Of a DNA stretch of 40,389 nt, positions 1 through 38,135 are shown piece after piece. The first letter of the stretch is position 1. Each line of letters begins with the position of its first letter. The notes below the pieces were generated by a model. The model worked only from the letters and a program-made list of their open reading frames with translations. It was not told the origin of the DNA and made no database searches. The DNA is from a virus. The position numbers and the translations under genes are program-made. The stretch covers positions 1 to 40,389 of IMG/VR virus record IMGVR_UViG_3300037674_000399, one strand, 5' to 3'.

Positions 1-902
1 AATACATAATCAGCGTGTTGATAATTACCTAATGCCTGTCCTTCATCTCCCACAGCAGGTGGTATATAAACATTTTTATAATGCTTTGTAAATTCTTCAT
101 TTAAATATCCGTTATATATAACTCCTCCTGCTAAACAAAGATTGTCGCAAGATTTAAGTGGATAGATATGTTCTTTAATTTTATCATTTGTAAATTTTTG
201 TAATGTAAATGCCAAATCTGGTACACCATATTCTTCTACATTAATTAATTCGTGAGTTTTATAATTTTTTTCTTTTATAACATCATCAAGTATTGTTTCA
301 AATACATTATAATAATATGAACTAAATCTTCCATAACCAACTAACCCCATTAATTTACTTGCACCTAACGAACCAAATCCAGTTCGTTTTGACATTTGAT
401 TCCACAACCAACCTATAGGTAATTCTTTTGACAAGTCTTTAATATTATAATCTTTATCAACAAATATACATCTATGTTTATAACCTATACCATCAATAGC
501 AACTATATCTGATTGTTCATAACCAGAATTGATAAACGCATAAGTAGCGTGAGATTGATGATGGTCTATAAAGTAAATATCATCTTTGTAATAATGATCC
601 CATAACTTTTTAGGTTTAAAATCTAATACTTCTTTAGGTAATATATCTTTACACATTCTAATACCACCAACTGTCATTGAAAAACTTAATATACCATCTT
701 TTGGTTTTTTAAAATACTCTTTAACAAATTCATTATTTAATTTATAGTCACCTGTTTCTAATTGTTCTTGATGAGCATAAGAGTCTACCTTTAATGGTAG
801 ATTATGTTTAAATCTAGTATATCTTTCTCTTTGATTATGAAAGACACCATCATAAGTATTATGGTCGTGTAGATTTAATGCAACTGCAAATATTTTAGTC
901 AT
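1..902 (-). CDS. Carbamoyltransferase, NodU/CmcH/TobZ family (3' end cut by window edge)
   Basis: I translated this frame by hand. It is open from ATG at 902-900 to the window edge, giving the first 300 residues. Family signatures are visible: an N-terminal strand followed by NLHDHNTYDG, the metal/substrate motif DHHQSHA at residues 113-119, a LCLAGGV segment near residue 250, and PPAVGDEGQALG at about 282-293, which matches the P-A-x-GD-x-G-x-ALG block of NodU-type enzymes. Known members transfer carbamoyl from carbamoyl phosphate to a hydroxyl of a sugar or antibiotic through carbamoyl-AMP. Usual length is 500-600 residues, so the C-terminal domain lies outside the window. The start overlaps the stop of the upstream radical SAM gene by 8 bases, suggesting translational coupling. 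With neighbouring aminotransferase, epimerase and glycosyltransferase genes, a sugar acceptor is the likely substrate; that is inference. Confidence 0.85.
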   Translation of the reverse strand, partial: MTKIFAVALNLHDHNTYDGVFHNQRERYTRFKHNLPLKVDSYAHQEQLETGDYKLNNEFVKEYFKKPKDGILSFSMTVGGIRMCKDILPKEVLDFKPKKLWDHYYKDDIYFIDHHQSHATYAFINSGYEQSDIVAIDGIGYKHRCIFVDKDYNIKDLSKELPIGWLWNQMSKRTGFGSLGASKLMGLVGYGRFSSYYYNVFETILDDVIKEKNYKTHELINVEEYGVPDLAFTLQKFTNDKIKEHIYPLKSCDNLCLAGGVIYNGYLNEEFTKHYKNVYIPPAVGDEGQALGNYQHADYV

Positions 903-1719
903 TTAATACCTTCGCATATTTTCTCATAGGAAAATGTCCTTTTGGTGGAACAAATTCAGTACAAGTCTTACAATAGTTTTCATATTTAAATAATCTAAAG
1001 TTCATCATCTTATCAACGTTCTCCTGTGTAATGTCCCACTCTTTTGATAACTCTTTATTATTAGCAAACTTTTTACTACAATGTACTATAGTTTTTGTTT
1101 CAAAATTTATTACAGGCACCATTGGAAAAGAAGCACACAATTTTCTATCTATTTCATCTGCTTGTATAACATCTGTAAATTCTGGTGACCTACCATTAAA
1201 TGCTTTCCACATAGTATTCTTATGATTTAACTTTTCTATTACTTCTTTATGATTGTCTTTGTATTTAAAATAGTTTGGTGTCTTTACAACTACATTATAA
1301 TTATTCATATCATTTTCAGGTACAAAATCAAAGTTACCTAACATCTTTACTTCATCCTCATAAAAGTCTAATATATTGTGTTCAACATACAGTATTTCTT
1401 TATCTTTTAATACTTTAGGATATCTCTTTCTAACAAACGAGTTTGATAATACTGAACAAATAAAATTAGGATACTTTTTAATTTCTGCAATAACTTTATC
1501 TAAATTTTTAATTAGTCCAGGTTCACCACCAAGTAAACATATTCTCATCTTATAGTTTTTAAATTTCTCTAAAGTGCTTTTCAAAAAGACCATATCTACT
1601 GTCAAGTTTCTCATTTCTAAAGTATAACTTGTACAATAATGGCAGTCTTTATTGCAAGACATTGATAGAAAGAAGTCTACCGCCAAATAATTATTCTGTA
1701 TTTCTTGTAAGGTTTTCAT
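895..1719 (-). CDS. Radical SAM protein
   Basis: The 274-residue protein has the radical SAM cluster motif CxxxCxxC at C22, C26 and C29 (CNKDCHYC), followed by a GGEP motif (LLGGEPG) near residue 65 that contacts SAM's amino group. The C-terminal part carries extra cysteines (LCASF near 194, HCSKK near 214, YCKTC near 248), which could bind an auxiliary cluster as in SPASM/twitch proteins. Family members cleave SAM to a 5'-deoxyadenosyl radical and modify peptides, sugars or nucleotides; the substrate here cannot be told. It starts 1 base after the end of the next upstream gene and overlaps the carbamoyltransferase start, so it belongs to the same operon. Confidence 0.85.
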   Translation of the reverse strand: MKTLQEIQNNYLAVDFFLSMSCNKDCHYCTSYTLEMRNLTVDMVFLKSTLEKFKNYKMRICLLGGEPGLIKNLDKVIAEIKKYPNFICSVLSNSFVRKRYPKVLKDKEILYVEHNILDFYEDEVKMLGNFDFVPENDMNNYNVVVKTPNYFKYKDNHKEVIEKLNHKNTMWKAFNGRSPEFTDVIQADEIDRKLCASFPMVPVINFETKTIVHCSKKFANNKELSKEWDITQENVDKMMNFRLFKYENYCKTCTEFVPPKGHFPMRKYAKVLND

Positions 1720-1720
1720 A

Positions 1721-2053
1721 TTAATGTGTTTCTATAACTTTAGTTCCGTTTACTATTCTTATTTTTTTAGAATCCTTATTCCAATCACTACCACAAAATT
1801 TCTTACATACAGGTGGCGCTTGTTCTGGTTTATTTTTTAACATATTATAAAAATCAGTCCACTCTTTACTCTTAAAAATATCTTCAACATTTTCATTATT
1901 TTCTAATTTTAAATGTTCTTTAAACAAAGTTTTAATCCAATCTTGGTCTCTATATAATTCATCATCTACCCAACAACAAGGAGTAAAAAATCCATTACAA
2001 GAAAGAGTTACTTCTTGGTCTTTGTATATACATTTAGGACAAAATTTACTCAT
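1721..2053 (-). CDS. Cys-rich SPASM-like Fe-S protein (apparent C-terminal half of a split radical SAM enzyme)
   Basis: I chose ATG at 2053 (MSKFCPKC...). A GTG two codons upstream is possible. The protein has C5xxC8, then C19 and the pair C26-C27 (CNGFFTPCCW), then a later CKKFC. This spacing resembles the auxiliary-cluster (SPASM) part of radical SAM enzymes, where the pattern normally sits at the C-terminus of the same polypeptide. The gene begins inside the last codons of the radical SAM gene 2046-2726; the two overlap by 8 bases (ATGAGTAA) in different frames. The pair therefore looks like one enzyme encoded as two coupled genes, or a frame break. No catalytic CxxxCxxC is present in this part. 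Confidence 0.7.
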   Translation of the reverse strand: MSKFCPKCIYKDQEVTLSCNGFFTPCCWVDDELYRDQDWIKTLFKEHLKLENNENVEDIFKSKEWTDFYNMLKNKPEQAPPVCKKFCGSDWNKDSKKIRIVNGTKVIETH

Positions 2054-2726
2054 CTTCACGCTTTATTTTAGGTGGTTTAAATCTATCCCTCTTATTTCTT
2101 TGAGCATTTTGTAAATATTCTATTTCATCTTCATCTCTTCGTGTCTTTATAAAAATCATTTCTATACTATATTTTTTCGCCAATTGTTTGCACTCATCCA
2201 TATATTTTTTATTATAATCAAAGATAATATATTGCCAAATTGCTTCAACTCCCATTAACCTTGCCATCAACATCATCTTAAATAAAAATTCACCATTTTG
2301 ATTTACACGATAATTATGACTCAAGTGTGGGGGTCCATCAATACCAAAAGTCCAAATAGCTTCTGGATTTGCTAAAAATGCTTTTTCATACCAATCTTCT
2401 TTTCTTCCTGTAGCAGCTGTATTAACTCTAGTTCTAAATTTTTTTCCGTTTAAAGAGAATATTTTACATATTTTTAATAATTCAATAAAATATTTATTAA
2501 AAATAGGGTCAGAAAGTTGTCCACTAAAAGTTATATCACCATTCCAATATTTTAATATTTTTTTTAATCCATCTGGTGTTAAATCGTTACCTGGGACAAC
2601 TTTAGTCTTATGTAAAAACATATATGTTGTTCTCTTACACATAGAGCATTCCAATGTACATCTAGGCGTACCTTCAATATTAAGTCTTTTATTTTTAAAG
2701 AAAAATCTATCTCGTGATGTTTTCAT
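2046..2726 (-). CDS. Radical SAM protein, catalytic half
   Basis: 226 residues. The radical SAM motif is C23xxxC27xxC30 (CTLECSMC), preceded by a short beta strand (LNIEGTPR), the usual start of the TIM-barrel core. The GGE position is replaced by FSGQLSDP near residue 87, a variant of the FxGxGEP type. The protein ends soon after the barrel and lacks an auxiliary-cluster domain; that domain seems to be supplied by the overlapping downstream gene 1721-2053. Its start overlaps the end of the aminotransferase gene by 20 bases. Substrate unknown; the setting suggests a sugar or other small-molecule modification. Confidence 0.85.
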   Translation of the reverse strand: MKTSRDRFFFKNKRLNIEGTPRCTLECSMCKRTTYMFLHKTKVVPGNDLTPDGLKKILKYWNGDITFSGQLSDPIFNKYFIELLKICKIFSLNGKKFRTRVNTAATGRKEDWYEKAFLANPEAIWTFGIDGPPHLSHNYRVNQNGEFLFKMMLMARLMGVEAIWQYIIFDYNKKYMDECKQLAKKYSIEMIFIKTRRDEDEIEYLQNAQRNKRDRFKPPKIKREDE

Positions 2727-3972
2727 AAAACTTATTAAATGCTATCTTCAACTTTCTTTTATTCTTAAACTCAACTTCTTCAATATACCCTGGTGTTTGA
2801 TAGGTCTTCTCTACAATATAATCGTAAATAGGTTCAGTTGTTTCGTTGACTAAACTTGCGTCAAATAAATCATCACCTAATACTCTTTTCATATTTTTTA
2901 CAAACTTATTCTCTTCGTGTCCTAATAAAATTAAAATTGTATTAATAACTTCATCAATCTCCTCTTGTTTCATATAAGGGTGTATAGGTAAAGTCAATAT
3001 AGTATCACAAATAATTTTACTAATATACTGTTTATCTTTTCTATGATTAATGTTTTGATACATAGGACTTTCAGACAAAGGTTTATCATAATGCACTTTC
3101 GCACCAAGTCTATCTTTAACCATATCTCTTACTTTTTTATTCTGTAATCTAATAACATATTTGTGATAGTTATGGTTAAGACCATTTGTTGTAGGTTGTA
3201 CTGTTACATAATCTTTTAATTGTTCATCATATTGTTTTGCTATCTCTTGTCTTTTAGATATCCATTCGTTCATCTTCTTTAATCTAAAGTTAATAAAACA
3301 AGCATTAAGCATTAACATTTTTGAGTTACGACCTAACACTTCATTGTTGCCGTGTCTTCTTAACTTTCTAAACAATTCTGCTTTGTCTTTATCATCTGTT
3401 AAGATTGCCCCACCACCTGCTATACCAGCTACAACTTTATTTGCGTTGAAACTTAAACAACTAACATCTCCTATTGAACCTGCTTTAACATCATTTAAAC
3501 TAGCACCTAATGACTGAGCGGCGTCTTCTATAAATGCAATATTCTTTTCTTTACAAAAATCTAATATCTCTTTTGTATCAGACATACTACCAAATAAATG
3601 TGGATACACTATCGCTTTTACTCTCGGCGTCCACTCTCTTTTAATACTATCTAAATCCATATGATAAGTTAAAATATTAGGTTCACAAAACACAGGTCTT
3701 GCACCTACCATAGATATACAAGACGCTGTTGCTATCCAAGAAAATTGAGTTGTCATTACATCATATCTAGAATCAATACCTAAACTAATTAAAGCAAAAT
3801 GTAATGCGTCTGTACCACTATTACAAGCGACAGCATACTTTCTACCTGTTATTTTAGTAAGACTCTTTTCAAGGAACTCTACATTTTGTTCCTGTTCTTG
3901 TTGCATAGCACTATCAAAGATTTTTAAATATGCTTCTTTGTTTGCTAAATATTCTCTATCCCAACCTGTCAT
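2707..3972 (-). CDS. DegT/DnrJ/EryC1/StrS-family PLP aminotransferase
   Basis: 421 residues of fold-type I aminotransferase. Landmarks are the phosphate-binding CNSGTDAL at 50-57, the PLP-stacking region QFSWIATAS at 76-84, EDAAQSLGA at 149-157, and the PLP-binding lysine K179 in SFNANK. Family members convert keto-sugars on nucleotide carriers to amino sugars for O-antigen or glycan synthesis. The family is about 370 residues long; here a roughly 65-residue C-terminal extension of unknown role (after about residue 355) is added. The gene overlaps both neighbours (17 bases with the SGNH hydrolase, 20 with the radical SAM gene), which fits one translated operon. Confidence 0.9.
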   Translation of the reverse strand: MTGWDREYLANKEAYLKIFDSAMQQEQEQNVEFLEKSLTKITGRKYAVACNSGTDALHFALISLGIDSRYDVMTTQFSWIATASCISMVGARPVFCEPNILTYHMDLDSIKREWTPRVKAIVYPHLFGSMSDTKEILDFCKEKNIAFIEDAAQSLGASLNDVKAGSIGDVSCLSFNANKVVAGIAGGGAILTDDKDKAELFRKLRRHGNNEVLGRNSKMLMLNACFINFRLKKMNEWISKRQEIAKQYDEQLKDYVTVQPTTNGLNHNYHKYVIRLQNKKVRDMVKDRLGAKVHYDKPLSESPMYQNINHRKDKQYISKIICDTILTLPIHPYMKQEEIDEVINTILILLGHEENKFVKNMKRVLGDDLFDASLVNETTEPIYDYIVEKTYQTPGYIEEVEFKNKRKLKIAFNKFYENITR

Positions 3973-4675
3973 ATATAAACTCCGCTATTTTTTCTTGTCC
4001 TTTTGCAGTAGGATGAGTATCTTTTTTTGAAACTTCATATTTACCATATCCTAATACATCACTCTTTATACTAAACCCACCTATACCTGGATCGCCAGGC
4101 CAACCTATAAAATTTTTATCTATCTTATCACAATAAATATTATTATTAATATGTTGTAAAAATCTACTATTATCCATTTCCACGGCGTCCTGTTTTTGTG
4201 TAGCTGGATTGTACCACCAACCGTGAAATATATGAAGCATTTGAACTTGTTTTAAAGGTATCTTTTTAGATTTACATATCTCTTGAAGACTATAATAATA
4301 TCCAATACTTTTATCCAAAAAACCAAACATATCATTTGAACCATAACCAAAAAAACCAACTGCTAATTTACCTGTATTACAAACTTGGGTATTATTAAAC
4401 CACTTTCCTTTTATTTTCCAATCTCGCCTTTGACATACAGACCAAGCAGGTATTACCAATCCTATATTATCAATAGTCGCTATTTTGTCCAATAGACTAT
4501 AGTAAATATATTCGTTACCTGCTCCACTATGAGCAAGATTAATAACTTCCATATCTAATTTTTTTCCTAGTATCTCGGGCCAGAAAGGCCAAGCGTTAGG
4601 ACCTATATCGTGAAAATCACTACACCAATCTTTATCTGTATAACTACAACCACCAGTTAATAATATTTTTCTCAT
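3956..4675 (-). CDS. SGNH/GDSL-type hydrolase
   Basis: 239 residues. Block I is GGCSYT with the predicted nucleophile S11; a G/N block appears as HSGAGNE near residue 49-55; block V is DTHP with D219 and H221, placed just before the C-terminal helix as expected. SGNH enzymes are esterases or acyl transferases, and in glycan clusters they often remove or add acetyl groups. No signal peptide is visible, so it acts inside the infected cell or on phage-made glycans. It overlaps the glycosyltransferase gene by 4 bases. Confidence 0.8.
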   Translation of the reverse strand: MRKILLTGGCSYTDKDWCSDFHDIGPNAWPFWPEILGKKLDMEVINLAHSGAGNEYIYYSLLDKIATIDNIGLVIPAWSVCQRRDWKIKGKWFNNTQVCNTGKLAVGFFGYGSNDMFGFLDKSIGYYYSLQEICKSKKIPLKQVQMLHIFHGWWYNPATQKQDAVEMDNSRFLQHINNNIYCDKIDKNFIGWPGDPGIGGFSIKSDVLGYGKYEVSKKDTHPTAKGQEKIAEFIYDRLG

Positions 4676-6057
4676 ATTCTTGTTTCAGCGTCAACTAAAA
4701 TCGGATTATTTTCTCTATAATAATCTTCAATAAGTCTTTCATCTTGAACTATAGTTTGTATTTTAGTAATACCTAATATTCCAAAAACTATAACTCTATG
4801 TCTTCCATCAATTACATAATACTTGTCTTCAGGAACATCTATAGATGTTCTTGACGATTTATGTTTTGATTTAATACATTCAATTGGTAAACATTTACTA
4901 GGATTAAAATTCTTTATAATTCTATCTACTGTATCAACATTTATTTCTGCTTGTATAGATTTATCTATCCATAATTTAGATAACTCTATTTCTTGTTGAC
5001 CTTTAGGAAATTTTGGATTCTTATCCCAACCTCTTTTATAATATAAGTTAGAAGTCTGTGGTAAGATATTATCGTCCCAACCCTTTTTCATAGCTGGTAA
5101 ATATTTTCTTTGCACCTCTTCAATAACACCTAACATACTTTTTCTTTTACGTCTTACTATATTCACATTTCCATACTTTTCAATAAGTACTCTTATTTTC
5201 TTTATTAAATCAATAAGAATATTTATGTTGTCAGAATATATCTGCTTTGTGGGTACAGGTCTGTTCCAGTATACCATACCACCATCTTTTATATTCTTAT
5301 CTCTTAAATACTCTACTTTTTTACCTAACCATCTAAATTCTACAAAAAGTCTAGGTGCAGGATCAAAGTTTGGTTTTGTATAGACATATGTTTCAAATTT
5401 ACCTAATATATTAGATATAGGCGCAAATAGATTATTTGAATTACGATTAATCCACTTCTCGTTATATGTTATAATACCGTGGTCTGGATACTTTTTAATT
5501 ACTTTTTCAATTTCTTTATAATATATTTCATTTGTTCCTAAAAATAAATGTTTATATTGTATATCATCTTTCACAGGTTTATATACATCAAAGTTAATTA
5601 TCTTCTCATATTGTTTACCTACACCATTTTGATAGACTTCGTGGTCGCATAAGTTCCAAACCTTTTTAGTTTTAAAATATCTTAATGCTAAAGGATATTC
5701 TTCAGGATGATTTTCTGAATAAAGTGCTATTACATTATTATTGAATAATAAATGTAAAGTTAATAATTGTTCTTTAGTATATTTGTGTTTATCTAGGTAT
5801 GGTAAAGTTATCATACTTCTACCTAGTACTAAAGTTAATTCATCTGTAGATGGTGTGTAATAGTCAAAGACAATATTTTCATAAGTCTTATATTGGTCTT
5901 TAATTGCTTTTATATAATCTTCTTTTGGGTGTTTAGGATTGGGTATTATTACACATTGACTTTCAATACCTACTGAATTGAGATAACAACAATGTTCATA
6001 ACTATAACGTAATAATCCATCACCAGGTTTACCTGTACATACTATATTCAATATCAT
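4672..6057 (-). CDS. Glycosyltransferase-like protein with a ParB-like C-terminal domain
   Basis: 461 residues. The N-terminal part (about 1-290) looks like a GT-B type glycosyltransferase as seen in marine phages: an early GDGLLRYSYEHC segment, then FDPAPRLFVEF and KNIKDGGMVYWNR in the second half. After a charged linker (about 290-340) the C-terminal part (about 345-461) resembles the ParB/sulfiredoxin fold, with YYVIDGRHR (D417-R421) followed by a hydrophobic helix and FGILGI, as in D-G-x-H-R of ParB-like nucleases or NTPases. Such domains bind nucleotides. A fusion of the two is unusual. Both domain calls are from motif memory; the glycosyltransferase call is the firmer one. Confidence 0.65.
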   Translation of the reverse strand: MILNIVCTGKPGDGLLRYSYEHCCYLNSVGIESQCVIIPNPKHPKEDYIKAIKDQYKTYENIVFDYYTPSTDELTLVLGRSMITLPYLDKHKYTKEQLLTLHLLFNNNVIALYSENHPEEYPLALRYFKTKKVWNLCDHEVYQNGVGKQYEKIINFDVYKPVKDDIQYKHLFLGTNEIYYKEIEKVIKKYPDHGIITYNEKWINRNSNNLFAPISNILGKFETYVYTKPNFDPAPRLFVEFRWLGKKVEYLRDKNIKDGGMVYWNRPVPTKQIYSDNINILIDLIKKIRVLIEKYGNVNIVRRKRKSMLGVIEEVQRKYLPAMKKGWDDNILPQTSNLYYKRGWDKNPKFPKGQQEIELSKLWIDKSIQAEINVDTVDRIIKNFNPSKCLPIECIKSKHKSSRTSIDVPEDKYYVIDGRHRVIVFGILGITKIQTIVQDERLIEDYYRENNPILVDAETRI

Positions 6058-6058
6058 A

Positions 6059-6535
6059 TTAACTCATTAAATCTATAGCAATCTTTAATAACTCAATTTT
6101 ATTTTTAGCTTGTCTTAATTTCTTTTTAACTTCAATATCTTTTGAATCTCTAATTTGTTTTAATTCAAACAATGCAAGTTTCAAAGCAAATAAATGGTCT
6201 TCATTTTCTGTTTCTTCAAACATTGCTTTAACAATAGTAGGATAGAATTTTGTATCTAATCTATGTTCATCAAATACTAATCCATCTCTTTTAGCAATCC
6301 TCACTACCATTTCTTCAACTGCCTTTTTTTCTTTTTGCTTTTTCTGATATGTATTTTCGTGAAGGTCATCTAAAGTAATAATCTTTAATAACTCTTGACA
6401 AACTGGATATTTCTCATCATATTCAACTATATGTGAAATAACTTTTTCATTTTTTTCATCTCTTAATAAAACTTCAATATTCTTTCTTTCATTATCTATA
6501 AAACTTGCTGTAATGTAATTTTCTTTAGTTATCAT
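6059..6535 (-). CDS. Hypothetical protein, helical and charged
   Basis: 158 residues with no motif I recognise. The first 45 residues are beta-rich (ITASFIDNERKNIEVLL), the remainder is strongly helical and rich in K and E, with a likely coiled coil between about 60 and 75 and again at 125-155. It sits between the epimerase (1-base overlap) and the glycosyltransferase (1-base gap). Similar-looking proteins occur near tail-fibre genes of marine T4-like phages, but I cannot name a function. Confidence 0.7.
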   Translation of the reverse strand: MITKENYITASFIDNERKNIEVLLRDEKNEKVISHIVEYDEKYPVCQELLKIITLDDLHENTYQKKQKEKKAVEEMVVRIAKRDGLVFDEHRLDTKFYPTIVKAMFEETENEDHLFALKLALFELKQIRDSKDIEVKKKLRQAKNKIELLKIAIDLMS

Positions 6536-7281
6536 TAATTTGTTCTCCTGTTCTTTGTTATATATGTTTTTAAATTCACTTCAGGATTCCAACCTAAAGA
6601 TTTTAAAAATCCTATATCTGCTTTATTCAATATTCTTTCAGATTCATCTGCTAATTGTTCTTTAGTATCAATCTTAAAGTATTGTAGTATATCAGTTAGC
6701 TTATGTAATTCTCCAGCACCAATATCTATAATATCTCCAAATGGTATTACTCTTTCAGTTGAAGATATTAAAGTATTTATCGCTGAGCATATATCGTCTA
6801 CGTGAATAAAATCTCTCCAATGGTTTGTATTAACATATGGTACATCATTTCTCAATATTCTAGGTATCAACATAGTATCTCTAGCACCTTGACCATAGAC
6901 TGTAGTAAATCTCAAACCAACAGATTTTTTTGGTGCAATTTGTTCCATAGAATACTTACTCATTGCATATGGATTTCTCCAGGGTTCGTATGCAGTACTT
7001 GAACTTGCGTATAAAATTTTTGTGTCTTTGAAATGGTCAAATACTCTTTGACTTGCGATAACGTTATGTTTCCAATAGTCTGTAGGATTTTTAAAACTAT
7101 CTCTAACACCAGATAGTCCTGCTAAATGTATTACCCAATCAACATCATATTTTAAATTACAAGTTAGTAAATCATTACCACTATTACGGTCTATCTCAAT
7201 AATAGTATGTCTTTTTATTTGTAGATATGTCTTTAGATTTTTTCCTATAAATCCATCAGAACCAGTTAATAATATTTTCAT
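6535..7281 (-). CDS. NAD-dependent epimerase/dehydratase (extended SDR)
   Basis: 248 residues. The Rossmann motif GxxGxxG is G7-S-D-G10-F-I-G13, the strand VIHLAG is at 50-55, SSST at 93-96 supplies the catalytic Ser/Thr, and YxxxK is Y105-A-M-S-K109. These are the complete catalytic elements of nucleotide-sugar epimerases and dehydratases such as GalE or RmlB. It is shorter than most (about 310 residues), with a reduced C-terminal substrate domain. It is the first gene of the sugar cluster after the fibre genes and probably makes an activated sugar for the glycosyltransferase next to it. Confidence 0.88.
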   Translation of the reverse strand: MKILLTGSDGFIGKNLKTYLQIKRHTIIEIDRNSGNDLLTCNLKYDVDWVIHLAGLSGVRDSFKNPTDYWKHNVIASQRVFDHFKDTKILYASSSTAYEPWRNPYAMSKYSMEQIAPKKSVGLRFTTVYGQGARDTMLIPRILRNDVPYVNTNHWRDFIHVDDICSAINTLISSTERVIPFGDIIDIGAGELHKLTDILQYFKIDTKEQLADESERILNKADIGFLKSLGWNPEVNLKTYITKNRRTN

Positions 7282-7297
7282 AATAAAATCTCATTGT

Positions 7298-8227
7298 TTA
7301 ACTTTTATTTATTTTCAAATACCAAGTATTTGATGTTGAAGCTGTACCATTTGGAAACTCTTGCGCTCTATAATCATCAGCATCCACTTGACGAGTTTGA
7401 TAATCTCCTGAACCTGTCAATATTGTATCTGCCATACCAGAACCTCTATTTGTTCCTGATATATAACTATAAGTTATTCTAAAACCATCTGCTGAAGCAG
7501 CTGCTGTATATTTAATTGCATTGCCTATTAAAGTATTAAAATCTGCTGTTACATATTCTCTTAAATCATTTCCAGCGGTAACATAAAGTGGTGTTTTTGT
7601 AGATTGATTAGCACCATCTATTTGATGTAAATAATAATTTTGAATTGTTGTAGGATTATCCAATGCGTGGTCTCCAATTGTTGTAGGGTCATAAGCAGTT
7701 GTATCTGCTTGAGTATTTACAAAAATTGGTGTTCCATTAACTAAAGTAGAACCTGCAACATTATTTGAAGTGTTAATATGATATGTTCCACCTTGTTCAG
7801 TTGTTAAAGTCGCCGCCACTAATTTATCTATTGCAGGATGAAGAAAAGTATCTTTAACATCTTCCAATGACATTGCTTGAATATTATTAGTCGCTGTTCT
7901 ATAACAAGGCCAAGTTTTTCCTGAATCAGTTGGAGCTGAACCAGAGTTTGTTGTTGATTGTATTTTATCGTAGGTAACAGTTACCGTTGTAGGTTCTGCT
8001 GTTGTTGCCTCATTAGGAAAAGCTGAAGCGTCTGTTGAATGGACACCCGCCGCTTGTCTTGTATCTGTTATTGATCCAACATTACCACCAGAACTAACTA
8101 CTGATAATGCAACAGATGGTGCTAATGAATATTGATAGATTGTTTGTGTAATTATTTCATCAACTTCAGGAGAAGTCATTTCTCTCAAATTGCCTGCGCT
8201 ATAATATAAAGGAGCTCGTATAGCCAT
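7298..8227 (-). CDS. Virion structural protein, probable fibre-associated
   Basis: 309 residues, rich in T, S, N and A, typical of phage fibre proteins. An internal duplication is visible: residues 5-30 (APLYYSAGNLREM...) resemble residues 212-241 (TPLYVTAGNDLREY...), and a weaker copy starts near 115. No enzyme motif is seen. It is the last gene of the baseplate/fibre operon and begins 11 bases after the preceding fibre-like gene, with RBS AGGAG upstream of ATG. Confidence 0.75.
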   Translation of the reverse strand: MAIRAPLYYSAGNLREMTSPEVDEIITQTIYQYSLAPSVALSVVSSGGNVGSITDTRQAAGVHSTDASAFPNEATTAEPTTVTVTYDKIQSTTNSGSAPTDSGKTWPCYRTATNNIQAMSLEDVKDTFLHPAIDKLVAATLTTEQGGTYHINTSNNVAGSTLVNGTPIFVNTQADTTAYDPTTIGDHALDNPTTIQNYYLHQIDGANQSTKTPLYVTAGNDLREYVTADFNTLIGNAIKYTAAASADGFRITYSYISGTNRGSGMADTILTGSGDYQTRQVDADDYRAQEFPNGTASTSNTWYLKINKS

Positions 8228-8238
8228 AATTTAATCTC

Positions 8239-9126
8239 CTATGTAGCACTACCAACAATCGTCTTTTGCGCTACCCCTGCTGAATTGTATATTACTAAAG
8301 ATGATGACAATGTAAAAATACTACCAGTTGCCCATCCTGTTTTATTTTCTAATAGAACTGTACCTGTTGCGTTAGGAAGTGTGATTATTTTATCAGTTGT
8401 TGGATCTTCAACAGTTAATTCAGTTTCAAAACTATCGTTTGTTGCACCTTCAAAGAAGATACTTTTATTTTGACCTATTTCTAAATTAGAATTTATAGTA
8501 ATTTGGTCTCCTGATAAAGGAATAAAAGTATTTGCTAGTACATTACCTAAAACTCGTAAGCTATCATTAATAATTAATTCAGTTGAATCAGTTGAATTAA
8601 TAGTATTACCTGAAATTTGAACTGTTCCTAATGTATGAGTTGTGCCTGTACCTGTAAGTGTTCCAGCAGACATTGAACCAGCAGATACTTCATTAGTTGT
8701 TGTTATATTTTCATTATCAAAATTTATAGTACCACTTGAGTCTGTAATATAACCACTTGATAAAGTTAAATTACCTGCATTAACAGTTGGAGATGATATA
8801 GAAGTTGTAATAGTTACATCATCTGTTAATGACATTGTTAATGTATCTGGAACAGATACAACAGCATTTATTTGGTTTGATGTTCCAAGAAATCTACCTG
8901 TTTGACCTGCACCAACTGTTTGTGTTGTTGAAGTAGAGTCTTCCATCTTCCAACCAGCAGCAGAAAATATTTGTCCAGCTAATTCATTAACAGCACCAAT
9001 AACGTTAGTTGCTGACATTGTGGCGTCTAACGTAGCTATATCGCCGAAATCATCCTTCGCTAATGCGTTAAACTCCGTTCTTAAAGTTTCTAACGTTTGT
9101 TCTGGTAATATTTGTCTTACTGCCAT
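8239..9126 (-). CDS. Fibre-like virion protein
   Basis: 295 residues. The first 60 residues are helical (MAVRQILPEQTLETLRTEFN...NVIGAVNELAGQIF) and look like a baseplate-attachment or trimerisation segment. The rest is low-complexity S/T/N/G-rich beta sequence of the kind found in trimeric fibres, followed by PTTDKIITLPNATGTVLL, a motif repeated in many marine phage fibres. It directly follows the small gene 9128-9349 with a 1-base gap. Likely a tail fibre or whisker-like component. Confidence 0.7.
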   Translation of the reverse strand: MAVRQILPEQTLETLRTEFNALAKDDFGDIATLDATMSATNVIGAVNELAGQIFSAAGWKMEDSTSTTQTVGAGQTGRFLGTSNQINAVVSVPDTLTMSLTDDVTITTSISSPTVNAGNLTLSSGYITDSSGTINFDNENITTTNEVSAGSMSAGTLTGTGTTHTLGTVQISGNTINSTDSTELIINDSLRVLGNVLANTFIPLSGDQITINSNLEIGQNKSIFFEGATNDSFETELTVEDPTTDKIITLPNATGTVLLENKTGWATGSIFTLSSSLVIYNSAGVAQKTIVGSAT

Positions 9127-22600: not shown

Positions 22601-24454
22601 TTAGTAGCTGGAAGTAGTTGTGTATCCGACACCTGCCTCAGCACTTCCTCCTACAAAACTATCAGCTGTAACTGTTATTTTTGAATTTGCAATATCCATT
22701 TCAACAATTTGGTCTCTAACTGGAACAACATCATTAGAACTTGGTACTACAGTTAATCTTATTACTGTTGAAACTGCACCATCAATATTTGATATACTAG
22801 CAATGTTCATTGAATTAAGTGTTAATGCACCTGTTGAATAATCAATAGTACCTTGTGTTGAATTTAAATAAGATTTTACTCCACTTGCCTGATAATATAA
22901 TCTTACATTACCTGCGCCGTCATCATCAAAAAAGCATTCGTTATCATTACCATCAACTTTAAATCCTGATGAAGTTAATATTCCACCTGAACTTGCCATA
23001 TGTCCAGAGTGTGGATTATATAATGCATTTCTAAAATAGATACTATATTTTGCTGATGTACTAATTAATGGTTGGAAATCTTTTCTAATTTTAACAGTTG
23101 TAATGTTTGATAAAATACTTGTATCAGCACTATCAATCAAACCTGTAACTTTTGAATATCTGAATACTGCGTCAAACTTTTGTAAAGTAGAAGCATTATA
23201 AGTTGTTAATGAATCAATAACATCTGCTTTTATAGTATCAGCAGTTTTTGCTGTTGCCTTTGCGTCATACTTAACATTTGAAGTAATTAATACAGAAGTT
23301 GTTTCTGGATCTTTTATAACTGGTCTTACTGAAGCAACGTTAAATGGTTTTAATTGAGTTACAATATCTGCTTTTGATGTATCTGATAATACTGTTCCTG
23401 ATTTTGCTTTAATTGAAATATTTACAACACCGTATTGTGGAGTTTCATCATCTTCACCACCCCACGCACTTACTGATAATGCATTTGGATAAATTGATTT
23501 AACTAAAGTTTCATAATCAGTTGCTGTAACTGCTCTATCTTGAGCGGCATATTGTAAAGGTGCATTAAATTTTATTGATTGATTTGTTTCTGCAATTGCA
23601 CCACCTTGAGAATTTGAATCAGTTGTTATAGTTACGTTATTAAATCCACCAATGTTTCCTGATAATGAAAATTTTGAAGCACCATTTGAATTTACTGTAT
23701 TAGTTACAACATATTCTAATATAATAATATTACCATCTGATAATTTTTTACCTACAACACCATCACCAAAATAAATCTCATACTTATTATCTGAACCTTC
23801 TTGTATAAAATAAACTTTTGAATCACTTGCAACATTATTATAACCACCCGCTAAAGCATACACACCTTGCGTTGTATCTGTATTACTATTTTGAACGGTA
23901 ACTTTTAAAGTTGAAGTATCTGCCATAGAACTAGGTATAACAAATTTCTGGTCAGTATCATTTACATCAACTGTATATTTAAATGTAACCAATGTTCCTT
24001 CATAAAGAGTTACATCATTAAATGTATAAACTCCATTTACTGGTGTAATTGTTGTATCTGCATTAGTTACATATTGATAATCAACTGTATCAACTGTAGT
24101 TGTAAAAATTGTTCCCTTCTGCATTGTAACCGAGGAACCTGTTGCGTTATTAACAACAATATCAATTTGTGCTCTTGGTGCTCTAGGAGATGTAGGAGTA
24201 TATCCTAACATCTTTGCTAATGAAACAATATTTTTTCTAATATCAGCACTATCCAAATACATTTCATTAGTTGACATATTTGCAATGTATGACAAGTAGT
24301 GAGTATTGTAAGATAGTACATCTAATAAAATAGATAAACCAGCACCCTCAAAATCATAATCTTGAAATTGTGTTTGACTTTGTAAAAAAGTTTTTAAATT
24401 TACTTTGATTGCGTCAAAATCTAATTCAGATACTTCTAATTTATGTTGTGCCAT
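22601..24454 (-). CDS. 6: Baseplate wedge protein gp6 (gpJ-like)
   Basis: 617 residues, close to T4 gp6 (660). The N-terminal part (FDAIKVNLKTFLQSQTQFQDYDFEGAG...VLSYNTHYLSYIANM...) is diagnostic of T4-like gp6, and the middle contains AVTATDYETLVKSIYPN, the conserved core of the gp6/gpJ baseplate family. Gp6 dimers form the inner ring that ties the wedges together. The gene begins 1 base after the gp25 stop, as in T4-type baseplate operons. Confidence 0.88.
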   Translation of the reverse strand: MAQHKLEVSELDFDAIKVNLKTFLQSQTQFQDYDFEGAGLSILLDVLSYNTHYLSYIANMSTNEMYLDSADIRKNIVSLAKMLGYTPTSPRAPRAQIDIVVNNATGSSVTMQKGTIFTTTVDTVDYQYVTNADTTITPVNGVYTFNDVTLYEGTLVTFKYTVDVNDTDQKFVIPSSMADTSTLKVTVQNSNTDTTQGVYALAGGYNNVASDSKVYFIQEGSDNKYEIYFGDGVVGKKLSDGNIIILEYVVTNTVNSNGASKFSLSGNIGGFNNVTITTDSNSQGGAIAETNQSIKFNAPLQYAAQDRAVTATDYETLVKSIYPNALSVSAWGGEDDETPQYGVVNISIKAKSGTVLSDTSKADIVTQLKPFNVASVRPVIKDPETTSVLITSNVKYDAKATAKTADTIKADVIDSLTTYNASTLQKFDAVFRYSKVTGLIDSADTSILSNITTVKIRKDFQPLISTSAKYSIYFRNALYNPHSGHMASSGGILTSSGFKVDGNDNECFFDDDGAGNVRLYYQASGVKSYLNSTQGTIDYSTGALTLNSMNIASISNIDGAVSTVIRLTVVPSSNDVVPVRDQIVEMDIANSKITVTADSFVGGSAEAGVGYTTTSSY

Positions 24455-24455
24455 T

Positions 24456-24944
24456 TTATCTTAACCTTTGTAAATTTATTGAAACTGAATGTGGGTGTGG
24501 AACACCTATAATATTAAAATGTATTTCTACTTCTAATCTATTATCATCTGCATTTTGGTTTCTCACATCTAAAACCGAACCAGATAAATTTTCTCCATTT
24601 ATTATAATACCAGTTAACACAATTCTAGGTTCATTATTAACTAAACACTCTTCTATTTTTCTTTTTAAAAACATACTATTAACTGGGTTAAAATTTTCAA
24701 AAAGTAACCCTCTTATACCACATCCTAATTCTGGATGAAATGGTCTTTCATAAAAATTTGTTAATACTAGATTTCTTACAGACCTTTTTATTGCTATAGC
24801 GTCTTCAACCACATTAACGTCATTAGTAACTGGATGTCTTCCAAAGTCTAAATCTATATCTTTAAACTTCCTAGATTGCCTAGTACTAGAACTTTTAACG
24901 TGTTTTGTATAATCGTTTAAAAATGCTTGGTTGTTTTGTGCCAT
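24456..24944 (-). CDS. 25: Baseplate wedge protein gp25 (GPW/gp25 family)
   Basis: 162 residues. The gp25 family core is clear: VRNLVLTNFYERPFHPELG, GIRGLLFENF, and the EPRI motif at about 117-120 (NNEPRIVLTG) that gives the family's conserved EPR. It has lysozyme-like fold in name only and links the sheath and wedge. The N-terminal 30 residues are an added arm. A late promoter lies 8 bases upstream. Confidence 0.92.
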   Translation of the reverse strand: MAQNNQAFLNDYTKHVKSSSTRQSRKFKDIDLDFGRHPVTNDVNVVEDAIAIKRSVRNLVLTNFYERPFHPELGCGIRGLLFENFNPVNSMFLKRKIEECLVNNEPRIVLTGIIINGENLSGSVLDVRNQNADDNRLEVEIHFNIIGVPHPHSVSINLQRLR

Positions 24945-24952
24945 AACTGTAA

Positions 24953-24960
24953 TATTTATA
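24953..24960 (-). promoter_or_regulatory. T4-type late promoter (TATAAATA) for gp25-gp6
   Basis: Exact octamer on the minus strand, 8 bases upstream of the gp25 ATG. The leader would be very short or absent, so either gp25 is translated from a near-leaderless message or the site is not used at the expected spacing. Confidence 0.65.
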
Positions 24961-24963
24961 CAG

Positions 24964-25263
24964 TTATCCCGCTCTTACTGTAGTAGAACCTTTAATTAAT
25001 TGTCCTGCGTCTGTACTATCACCAATTCGTGATACAGGTAATCCTACAACTCTAACAGTAGAACTACCAACATTAACTTTTGCCACGTGAGGAGCGCAAG
25101 GTGGTGACGGTGGAAAAGGATGAGAAACAGTTTTATCTGTTTTTCTTGCTATTAGTATATTATTTGCTCGGACAGTAGATTGTGTTGGAGTATCTAATAT
25201 AGTTACTCCAGCACAAATATGTCCTGTTGATAATTGGTCAGCTTTTCTACTGATACCTGGCAT
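24964..25263 (-). CDS. PAAR-like tail-spike tip protein
   Basis: I chose ATG at 25263 (MPGISRKADQLSTGHICAG...), giving 99 residues, because it overlaps the stop of the small upstream gene by one base (TAATG) and matches the usual PAAR opening; the longer frame adds 14 residues that belong to the other gene. Features are H and C residues (GHICAG, PPCAPH) suited to metal binding, and the C-terminal pattern SSTVRVVGLPVSRIGD...GSTTVRAG of PAAR repeats. PAAR proteins sharpen the gp5 spike tip. It lies 19 bases ahead of gp25. Confidence 0.85.
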   Translation of the reverse strand: MPGISRKADQLSTGHICAGVTILDTPTQSTVRANNILIARKTDKTVSHPFPPSPPCAPHVAKVNVGSSTVRVVGLPVSRIGDSTDAGQLIKGSTTVRAG

Positions 25264-25367
25264 TACGCCAAGATCCAAATAGCTACTATAACTATCAATA
25301 CCCAATTAGGTACTGAACTTTTAGTAAACCATTCTTTTACTTTTTTTGTGTCTATTGGTTCTATCAT
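25263..25367 (-). CDS. Small single-pass membrane protein
   Basis: Found by reading the gap between bL12 and the PAAR gene. It encodes 34 residues: a charged N-terminus (MIEPIDTKKVKEWFTKSS) and a C-terminal hydrophobic segment (WVLIVIVAIWILA). The start shares ATGA with the bL12 stop, and its TAA shares TAATG with the PAAR start, so all three are translationally coupled. No homologue known to me. The exact fit of both junctions is the main support. Confidence 0.6.
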   Translation of the reverse strand: MIEPIDTKKVKEWFTKSSVPNWVLIVIVAIWILA

Positions 25368-25726
25368 TTTACCTCTATTTTTCCTCCAGCAGACTCAATG
25401 TCTGCCTTTATCTTATTTGCTTCTTCTTTTTGTTGGTCTTCTGCGATTATAGAAGGACATTCTTCAACAAAAGTCTTTGCTTCAAGTAATCCCATATCTT
25501 TAAATGCTCTAACTGCCTTAATAACACCTATTTTCTTACCTGCGTCAAATCCTGTTAAGACTATTTTGAATAAAGAGTCTTCTTTTTCTTCTACTACTGC
25601 CGCTGGTGTATTTGTTAATGCGTTTAAATCTAAACCCCAAGTTTTCTCTAACTTTTTTGCTAACTCACCTGCTTCAACAACTGTTAATTTGCCTAATTGT
25701 TCAACTAACGTATCTATATTTGACAT
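25364..25726 (-). CDS. rplL: Ribosomal stalk protein bL12 (L7/L12)
   Basis: 120 residues, the length of bacterial bL12, aligning end to end with E. coli L7/L12. Residues 1-32 form the helical N-terminal dimer domain that docks on L10; 33-48 a shorter hinge (LNALTNTPAAVVEE); 50-120 the factor-binding domain. K65, I69, K70, R73, G79-L80 and E82-A83-K84 fall at the residues that touch EF-Tu, EF-G and IF2, and the last four residues are IEVK (E. coli VEVK). It should be able to join host ribosome stalks. bL12 genes have been reported in uncultured viruses. It lies between baseplate genes and an unknown basic protein. Confidence 0.93.
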   Translation of the reverse strand: MSNIDTLVEQLGKLTVVEAGELAKKLEKTWGLDLNALTNTPAAVVEEKEDSLFKIVLTGFDAGKKIGVIKAVRAFKDMGLLEAKTFVEECPSIIAEDQQKEEANKIKADIESAGGKIEVK

Positions 25727-25728
25727 TA

Positions 25729-25935
25729 TTATCTTCCAATCTTATCTCTTCTACCAATAGGTAGTTTTTGCCACTTGGTCATCTCTTGACCTTTCTTACT
25801 TATCCACTCAATATAGATTAATGGCGTTTTAACTTTATTTTGAAAAGATTTAACTGCCTTTTTCCAACTTGTAGCAGTTACTTCTTCGTTTATTTCTTTG
25901 TTATCTGTAAACTTAAACTTTTTTTCTTTTGACAT
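25729..25935 (-). CDS. Hypothetical small basic protein
   Basis: 68 residues with no recognised domain. It is lysine-rich with a central SWKKAVKSFQNKV helix and a strand LIYIEWI, then a basic tail (KLPIGRRDKIGR). The RBS AAGGA is 8 bases before ATG. It overlaps the end of the Cys-rich gene by 23 bases and ends 2 bases before bL12. Its position invites the idea of a nucleic-acid or ribosome-linked role, but nothing in the sequence proves it. Confidence 0.65.
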   Translation of the reverse strand: MSKEKKFKFTDNKEINEEVTATSWKKAVKSFQNKVKTPLIYIEWISKKGQEMTKWQKLPIGRRDKIGR

Positions 25936-26074
25936 TCTGTTTATTCCTTTTCACTTTACATTTTTTATCATCACATCTACAATATTTACAGATTTCTATG
26001 TTTCTAGCTTCCATCATTTCAAATTTGGGTTCTCCACAATGAGATTCCCTACCACAATTATTGCAATACGTCAT
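25913..26074 (-). CDS. Small Cys-rich zinc-ribbon-like protein
   Basis: 53 residues, read from the gap. It starts MTYCNNCGRESHCGE and continues to ICKYCRCDDKKC, giving CxxC(5)C plus CxxCxC(4)C spacing, enough for one or two zinc sites, followed by a lysine-rich tail. Such double-knuckle proteins occur in T4-like marine phages as I recall. ATG at 26074 lies 7 bases after a TATAAATA octamer. It overlaps the next gene by 23 bases. Confidence 0.7.
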   Translation of the reverse strand: MTYCNNCGRESHCGEPKFEMMEARNIEICKYCRCDDKKCKVKRNKQNVKRKKV

Positions 26075-26081
26075 AATATAT

Positions 26082-26089
26082 TATTTATA
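26082..26089 (-). promoter_or_regulatory. T4-type late promoter octamer (TATAAATA), abutting the zinc-ribbon gene
   Basis: Exact octamer on the minus strand in the 15-base gap between the lipoprotein stop and the zinc-ribbon ATG. Only 7 bases separate it from the start codon, so a transcript from it would be leaderless or start inside the gene. Confidence 0.5.
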
Positions 26090-27143: not shown

Positions 27144-27998
27144 TTACTGTCTATGATGTCTTACTAAACGTCTTGCTCCGTAAGTTATCATATAATCTGC
27201 ACCTGCTCTTTTAAATACGTGATATGTTTCTTCTAAACTACCAGGTGCCCCTATACCTAACCATTCTCCAGATGTTTGATATACACCTACAGGTTTCTTT
27301 GTAATATTTTTTATTGGTTCAATTAAGTCTAAACTTGTTATACCAGGTTTTACCATTAATTCATCTGCGCCATCATCTGAATACTTTATAGACCTTGCAA
27401 TCGCCTTATGTCTATCGTGGATATCTAATTGATAAGGTCTATGAATACCTTTTGATATTTTCATTGCATTACGCCAACCTCTATAAAATGTTGAACGAAA
27501 TTTTGTACTATAACTCATAACTTCTATATTACCATCTTTCAATGATTTAATATTCTTAACTGTATTGTCTTGACAATCACTTGGTGCTATTGTAGCACCT
27601 GACGCTGTGTAAATTGATTTTGCATTATCTAATAATAGTTTGTCTGTTCTTTCTTGGTCGCCCATAATACAACAATGTCCATCTTGCGTGTATGAACATA
27701 AACAAACATCTACAATTAATCTACAATGTGGTTGTATATCTTTTGAAAGACTAGCGGCAGTTACACATACTTGGTCAAACTTATGAGCGTCTATATGTTC
27801 ATCACCTCTATGACTACTAGATTTTTCACCTAACTTAAATTCTGGTATATAGAATAAAAGAAATTCTTTTACGCCTAAATCAATATCTTTCTTAACACGT
27901 TCATTAATTTCTTTCCACGCATTAAAGATTTTATTGTCTTCACCTAGTCCAGTATCTCTTGTAGAATAACTGGCAAATATCGGTTGTATTAATCTCAT
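27144..27998 (-). CDS. hemB: Porphobilinogen synthase (delta-aminolevulinate dehydratase)
   Basis: 284 residues that align with bacterial HemB from the first barrel strand to the end. The zinc-site cysteines are present, C99, C101 and C109 in VDVCLCSYTQDGHC (E. coli DTCFCEYTSHGHC), as are the active-site lysines K166 (SYSTKF) and K217 (MVKPG, the Schiff-base lysine), GATIAPSD (134-141), FYRGWRNA and VYQTSGEW. The enzyme condenses two 5-aminolevulinates to porphobilinogen, a step in haem synthesis. The roughly 30-40-residue N-terminal arm of cellular HemB (324-340 residues), which stabilises the octamer, is missing. ATG shares TAATG with the preceding membrane gene. Confidence 0.92.
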   Translation of the reverse strand: MRLIQPIFASYSTRDTGLGEDNKIFNAWKEINERVKKDIDLGVKEFLLFYIPEFKLGEKSSSHRGDEHIDAHKFDQVCVTAASLSKDIQPHCRLIVDVCLCSYTQDGHCCIMGDQERTDKLLLDNAKSIYTASGATIAPSDCQDNTVKNIKSLKDGNIEVMSYSTKFRSTFYRGWRNAMKISKGIHRPYQLDIHDRHKAIARSIKYSDDGADELMVKPGITSLDLIEPIKNITKKPVGVYQTSGEWLGIGAPGSLEETYHVFKRAGADYMITYGARRLVRHHRQ

Positions 27999-37663: not shown

Positions 37664-37671
37664 TATAAATA
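37664..37671 (+). promoter_or_regulatory. T4-type late promoter (TATAAATA) for gp4, plus strand
   Basis: Exact octamer 33 bases before the gp4 ATG. It faces away from a second octamer at 37678-37685 on the other strand, only 6 bases apart. Confidence 0.75.
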
Positions 37672-37703: not shown

Positions 37704-38135
37704 ATGAAGAAGAGTTACAAAGGAATATACAGACCAACATACCCTAGAAAATACGTAGGCAACCCTAATATGATAGTGTATAGGTCATTGTTAGAGCGTA
37801 GGTTTATGCGTTATTGCGACCTTAATCCTGATGTACTAGTTTGGGCAAGTGAAGAGTTACCTGTTAGATACTATAATCCATTAGACAAGAAATTTCATAG
37901 ATACTTTCCAGACTTTGTTATCAAGACAATTAAAGATAAAAAGTATATGATTGAAATTAAACCATCAAGACAATGTGTTAAACCTAAAAAACCTAAATTA
38001 AAGACTAAATCTTATATGCGTGAGTCATTTAACTATATCAAAAATAAAGCAAAATGGTCAGCAGCCAAGGCATACTGTTTAAATAATAATATGGAATTTA
38101 AATTGATTACTGAAAAACAATTAGGATTTAAATAG
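37704..38135 (+). CDS. 4: Head completion nuclease gp4 (gp50)
   Basis: 143 residues, close to T4 gp4 (150) and alignable end to end: PRKYVGN, YRSLLERRFMRYCDLNP, VRYYNPLDKKFHRYFPDF, IEIKPSRQCVKPKKPK and KWSAAKAYC. TnsA/PD-(D/E)XK nuclease residues are visible as E31, D70, E84 and K86. In T4 this protein finishes packaged heads and trims DNA ends before tail joining. It is the only structural gene on the plus strand, with its own late promoter, and its end overlaps the convergent IscA-type gene by 8 bases. Confidence 0.92.
   Translation: MKKSYKGIYRPTYPRKYVGNPNMIVYRSLLERRFMRYCDLNPDVLVWASEELPVRYYNPLDKKFHRYFPDFVIKTIKDKKYMIEIKPSRQCVKPKKPKLKTKSYMRESFNYIKNKAKWSAAKAYCLNNNMEFKLITEKQLGFK

Follow-up and report, generated by a model that had tools for sequence, protein, structure and literature searches.

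The window analyzed here, a linear virus record of 40,389 bases, carries on its minus strand a compact run of genes in which a ribosomal protein gene sits among tail genes. The order along that strand is a TATAAATA box, a zinc-ribbon-like gene, a gene for a basic protein, bL12, a gene for a 34-aa peptide, PAAR, gp25, and gp6. The box (26082..26089), a T4-type late promoter motif known from T4-like phages (PMC2984593), lies 8 nt before the first gene, which encodes a 53-aa Cys-rich zinc-ribbon-like protein (25913..26074) with putative zinc binding. It is followed by a 68-aa basic protein with no assigned function (25729..25935), which ends 2 nt before bL12 and is kept in phages that lack bL12; PHROGs returned no function for either the basic or the zinc-ribbon protein. 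The gene for the ribosomal stalk protein bL12 (L7/L12; 25364..25726) is full length and encodes 120 aa, and its stop codon is overlapped (ATGA) by the ATG of the 34-aa peptide (25263..25367), which displays one hydrophobic stretch as judged by eye. The PAAR-motif spike-tip protein (24964..25263) probably starts at the ATG at 25263, overlapping the stop codon of the 34-aa gene, and is followed by the baseplate wedge proteins gp25 (24456..24944), which has its own TATAAATA at 24953-24960, and gp6 (22601..24454). These overlaps and the tight packing suggest translational coupling along the chain. An earlier note on this DNA had placed bL12 between a zinc-ribbon/basic pair and baseplate genes, and this is indeed the arrangement found, with the pair directly upstream and PAAR-gp25-gp6 directly downstream.

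To identify the protein, we compared it with domain profiles, whole-protein models, and solved structures. The ORF starts with ATG, contains no internal stop codon, and occupies exactly the positions given in the earlier note, which had left the strand unstated. The Pfam C-terminal domain profile PF00542 (Ribosomal_L12) matches over its entire length (positions 1-67 of 67; 1.3e-21, 77.1 bits against a cut-off of 25.9 bits), and PF16320, the N-terminal dimerisation/uL10-binding domain, matches with 1.3e-9 and 38 bits (cut-off 25 bits), so that the N-terminal part is a predicted dimerisation and uL10-docking domain. The whole-protein bL12 equivalog TIGR00855 of NCBIfam scores 88.1 bits against a cut-off of 84.4, and the nearest solved structures by sequence are bacterial bL12 chains (best E 1e-14). 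A structure model built from a 42-row alignment reached a mean pLDDT of 72.4, as compared with only 50.6 from a 13-row alignment, with values below 50 in the linker, as expected of a flexible part. In the model, the C-terminal domain fits onto E. coli 1CTF with a Z of 14.4 and 0.8 A over 68 residues, while ClpS and other fold neighbours (Z below 10, 7-19% identity) share a common arrangement only. The N-terminal domain, linker, and C-terminal domain are thus all found in the window protein, as the earlier note had claimed, and its identification as bL12 by chance is excluded. The gene is likewise no pseudogene or decayed fragment, in line with that note, given both complete Pfam domains, the TIGR00855 match, and a dN/dS of about 0.2.

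For T4 and T4-like cyanophages, NATAAATA/TATAAATA has been published as the late promoter (PMC2984593). Each of the nine TATAAATA words found in the window stands 1-33 nt ahead of a gene start on its own strand, whereas 55 other orderings of the same letters, used as a control, are so placed in only 38 of 696 occurrences (5.5%). The raw count in the window is not above chance (9 vs 11 expected), such that position alone is non-random. Among relatives, ATAAATA occurs within 900 nt upstream of bL12 at 59 of 61 loci, a count that is inflated by shared ancestry, and in the closest of them the zinc-ribbon gene begins 6-7 nt after it. The late expression suggested in the earlier note is borne out as a prediction by the placement of the boxes and by the motif in these relatives: bL12 is predicted to be expressed late, together with the tail genes.

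The T4-type baseplate genes in the window are gp6, gp25, gp53, gp8, a gp5-type hub, and PAAR. The cultured phages nearest in gp6 are Pelagibacter phage Mosig EXVC030M (72%) and HTVC008M (57%), followed by Methylophilales phages (53%). Judged by these genes, the phage is a T4-like myovirus related to the Pelagibacter phages Mosig and HTVC008M, and the kinship of gp6 therefore makes a SAR11 host likely. No tRNA genes were found in the window. Upstream of the bL12 unit lies a gene for an aspartyl/asparaginyl hydroxylase-like protein (PF05118; 26506-27123, minus strand), a type of protein reported as core to pelagimyophages (PMC7029224). Next to it, at 27144-27998 on the minus strand, is a homologue of ALAD (porphobilinogen synthase; Pfam 1.2e-49, below the NCBIfam equivalog cut-off) that is kept beside the bL12 unit in many relatives, and whose activity is uncertain because the first ~50 profile positions are missing. 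The window also encodes a TnsA-like endonuclease N-terminal domain (PF08722, 1.9e-19; 37704-38135, plus strand), preceded by a separate TATAAATA box at 37664-37671. Positions 3-9126 of the minus strand, adjacent to the tail fibre genes, hold genes for a carbamoyltransferase, two radical-SAM proteins, an aminotransferase, a ParB-like protein, and an NAD-epimerase, which look like a glycan or nucleotide-sugar island.

Using two scans of viral contigs, we collected 80 distinct contigs bearing bL12 relatives (54-100% identity), and in 77 of these bL12 is followed by PAAR, gp25, or both. A further scan, seeded with gp25, shows how sharply the presence of the gene is divided: where gp25 is at least 67% identical, bL12 is present at 41 of the 41 loci whose contig reaches the bL12 position (11 further loci in this band are cut by the contig end before it), whereas at gp25 identities of 62% or less it is found at 0 of 28 loci, of which 27 keep the basic gene. 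In phage Mosig, the zinc-ribbon and basic genes run directly into PAAR, without bL12. On contig L242, the stop codon of the basic gene is immediately followed by the ATG of PAAR, both bL12 and the 34-aa gene being absent from this empty site; its basic protein is 78% identical to that of the window, and the TATAAATA box still stands ahead of the zinc-ribbon gene. Because these relatives join the flanking genes directly, bL12 and the 34-aa gene can be read as a two-gene cassette of about 0.46 kb that was gained in, or lost from, an existing unit. The earlier note had named a contig joining host and phage DNA as the case that would overturn its claim. The existence of 80 bL12-bearing viral contigs, 77 of them with the same junction, together with the empty sites, rules out such a host-phage chimera.

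The gene also appears to have moved between phages. The bL12 DNA of L022 (2102-2461) and L014 is 97% identical, with flanks that are only 43% (upstream 500) and 59% (downstream 800) identical, and with 100% identity in a 120-column block starting at the bL12 3′ end. L089, from the same diverged lineage as L022, has a bL12 that is 84% identical to that of the window and an upstream region that is 39% identical, and both L022 and L089 carry ATAAATA 7 nt before the bL12 ATG. The pattern in L022 and L014 indicates that the bL12 gene is exchanged between diverged phage lineages. Three divergent relatives carry it elsewhere: in L140 it lies between the genes for GMP reductase and a B-family DNA polymerase, and in L138 and L102 it lies outside the baseplate module. 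In L102 (1525-2105), the basic gene still stands 2 nt before bL12, although the two lie in another part of the genome, behind a redoxin gene, which hints that the basic protein and bL12 are functionally linked. The GMP reductase of L140 and a nearby D-2-hydroxyacid dehydrogenase (2731-8226) resemble the deep-ocean pelagimyophage gene set as outlined in PMC7029224. One relative, on a 177-kb contig, also encodes bS21, so that both ribosomal subunits may be targeted.

We then examined selection and descent. Pairwise comparison of 22 distinct close coding sequences gave a median dN/dS of 0.21 (211 usable pairs, not independent of one another), indicating that viral bL12 is under purifying selection. 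A tree built from 42 viral and 25 cellular sequences, the latter without SAR11, groups the viral proteins into a single clade with a support of 100/100 and a stem of 0.94 changes per site. The bL12 of a huge phage (LR756501), which is 31.7% identical, falls outside this clade on a long branch beside Bacteroides and therefore looks like a separate acquisition. A genome scan matched Verrucomicrobia and Chloroflexi only; since its search words came from the viral N-terminus and the KDMGLLEA loop, neither group can be taken to indicate the donor. When viral contigs were scanned with an alphaproteobacterial bL12, no recognisable SAR11 sequence was recovered.

The earlier note had further stated that the factor-contact residues are conserved, and the window bL12 does keep all eight positions (K65, I69, K70, R73, G79, L80, E82, and K84). 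Across the 42 distinct viral sequences, seven of these (K65, I69, R73, G79, L80, E82, and K84) are essentially fixed, whereas at position 70 the residue is K in 32 sequences and Q in the other 10, so that the factor face is not preserved strictly throughout the clade. Two neighbouring positions set the viral proteins apart from the cellular sample: position 77 is D/E in 40 of 42 viral sequences vs G/N/S, and position 81 is L/I/M, L being the signature state, vs K/A. The linker differs in composition as well, with a median Ala+Gly fraction of 0.17 in viral bL12 vs 0.56 in the cellular sample (range 0.41-0.69); that of the window protein is 0.18, against 48% in E. coli. Its length is 22 residues, compared with 23 in E. 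coli and up to 31 in the cellular sample, so the shorter hinge that the earlier note thought might change stalk reach amounts to one residue, is not meaningful as stated, and was dismissed as a difference from E. coli; composition is what differs. Conservation among the viral proteins is highest in the N-terminal, uL10-docking domain (mean identity 85%, vs 66% for the C-terminal domain). Such a pattern is consistent with a protein that docks on the ribosome and recruits GTPases, yet is no plain copy of a host bL12.

Viral bL12 is established in the literature. Mizuno et al. 2019 (PMC6375957) report that one such protein was detected by MS in E. coli 70S ribosomes, and that ribosomes with tagged viral bL12 could not be affinity-purified, which suggests weak or inefficient incorporation. 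Their proteins come from cultivated and uncultivated phages and, like that of the window, have conserved factor-contact residues; the seven cultured cases described there are podophages of less than 80 kb in which bL12 often lies inside larger proteins, whereas the window bL12 is stand-alone, full length, and belongs to a T4-like myophage lineage with one relative on a 177-kb contig. Zaragoza-Solas et al. 2020 mention an L12 homologue in some group PMP-A pelagimyophage genomes (PMC7029224), that is, the same protein in the same kind of phage (uncultured T4-like SAR11 myophages), in one sentence that, unlike the present analysis, comes without position, promoter, phylogeny, selection, or empty-site analysis. 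The earlier note did mention reports of viral bL12, but the novelty is lower than it implied, since the PMP-A case (PMC7029224) and the detection of another viral bL12 in ribosomes (PMC6375957) were already in print. Al-Shayeb et al. 2020 list rpL7/L12 in huge phages, e.g., LR756501 (PMC7162821), where it is likewise a stand-alone gene in a large phage genome, at only 31.7% identity. For bS21, a different protein of a different subunit, the metatranscriptomic account of Chen et al. 2022 gives late expression with structural genes (PMC9723584); as in the window, a ribosomal protein gene lies beside virion genes, but according to that account bS21 is on the opposite strand and outside their operon, whereas the window bL12 shares both the strand and the predicted unit of the structural genes. 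The find thus mostly confirms and sharpens published phage bL12 biology; not mentioned in the published passages on these systems are the cassette with its empty sites, the late promoter box, the signature of the viral proteins, and the exchange of bL12 among phage lineages.

The sequence itself establishes what the protein is and that it is intact, as well as its conserved position, the limits of the cassette, the selection, and the promoter box, whereas we infer late expression, ribosome incorporation, a benefit, and a SAR11 host. The best explanation, which we consider probable, is that phage bL12, made late, attaches to host uL10 and either takes the place of host bL12 or adds to it. According to this model, the bL12 and 34-aa cassette would sit in an otherwise conserved late unit (zinc-ribbon, basic, PAAR, gp25, and gp6), and bL12 would be synthesised alongside the tail proteins during the late phase. 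It would dimerise via its N-terminal domain, dock on host uL10, and exchange with or supplement host bL12 on the 50S stalk, the C-terminal domain recruiting host translational GTPases via the K65/I69/K70/R73/G79/L80/E82/K84 face. The phage stalk would bear virus-specific side features (D/E77, L81, and an Ala/Gly-poor linker), and the result would be a stalk that the phage provides, and probably adjusts, for making late proteins in bulk. Entry of the window bL12 into ribosomes would be expected by analogy with the other viral bL12 detected by MS in E. coli 70S. More tentatively, it is possible that these side features make bL12 a specialised protein that shifts the GTPase preference of late ribosomes, and that the phage alters both subunits (through bL12, and through bS21 in the 177-kb relative) to give a ribosome biased towards the virus in late infection. 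The core contact residues, all kept in the window bL12, and the strong purifying selection would also suit a mere supplement in dosage, in which more ordinary bL12 is provided to a slow-growing host whose stalk is limiting and ribosome behaviour is unchanged; this is unlikely, since the 0.94 stem, the virus-only D/E77, L81, and the Ala/Gly-poor linker, as seen against a sample without the real host bL12, are unexpected of a plain copy.

Other readings take the protein away from the ribosome. Free bL12 dimers could act as a decoy that binds EF-Tu, EF-G, IF2, or RF3, or blocks a defence protein sensing the stalk or its factors, as would agree with the conserved factor-binding face and with the failed purification of tagged ribosomes recounted by Mizuno et al. 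(PMC6375957); we find this improbable, because the uL10-docking domain, needless for a decoy, is the part with the highest conservation (85% vs 66%). The linkage to PAAR-gp25-gp6 in 77 of 80 contigs and the shared predicted late unit might instead speak for a bL12 that is packaged or aids baseplate assembly. The packaging idea, raised in the earlier note, is unsupported because L140, L138, and L102 carry bL12 outside the tail/baseplate module, related phages keep the same baseplate genes without bL12, and nothing points to a virion role, so that we consider such a role very improbable. The window is a single linear 40-kb virus fragment rather than an isolate, which leaves room for an assembly artefact or a recent, functionless capture of a host gene, but 80 contigs (one of 177 kb), empty sites, selection, and a long private viral branch render this hardly conceivable.

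Docking of a late-made phage bL12 on host uL10 thus being the preferred reading, its meaning depends on whether the protein really enters host ribosomes. If it does, a widespread group of marine phages would, as virions are being built, exchange the ribosomal component responsible for recruiting elongation and release factors, a clear example of translation being tuned by a virus via ribosome composition. To the published reports, the present analysis adds locus structure, promoter, selection, and recombination evidence, and it defines a small cassette, bL12 plus the 34-aa peptide, for which natural relatives without bL12 provide the controls.
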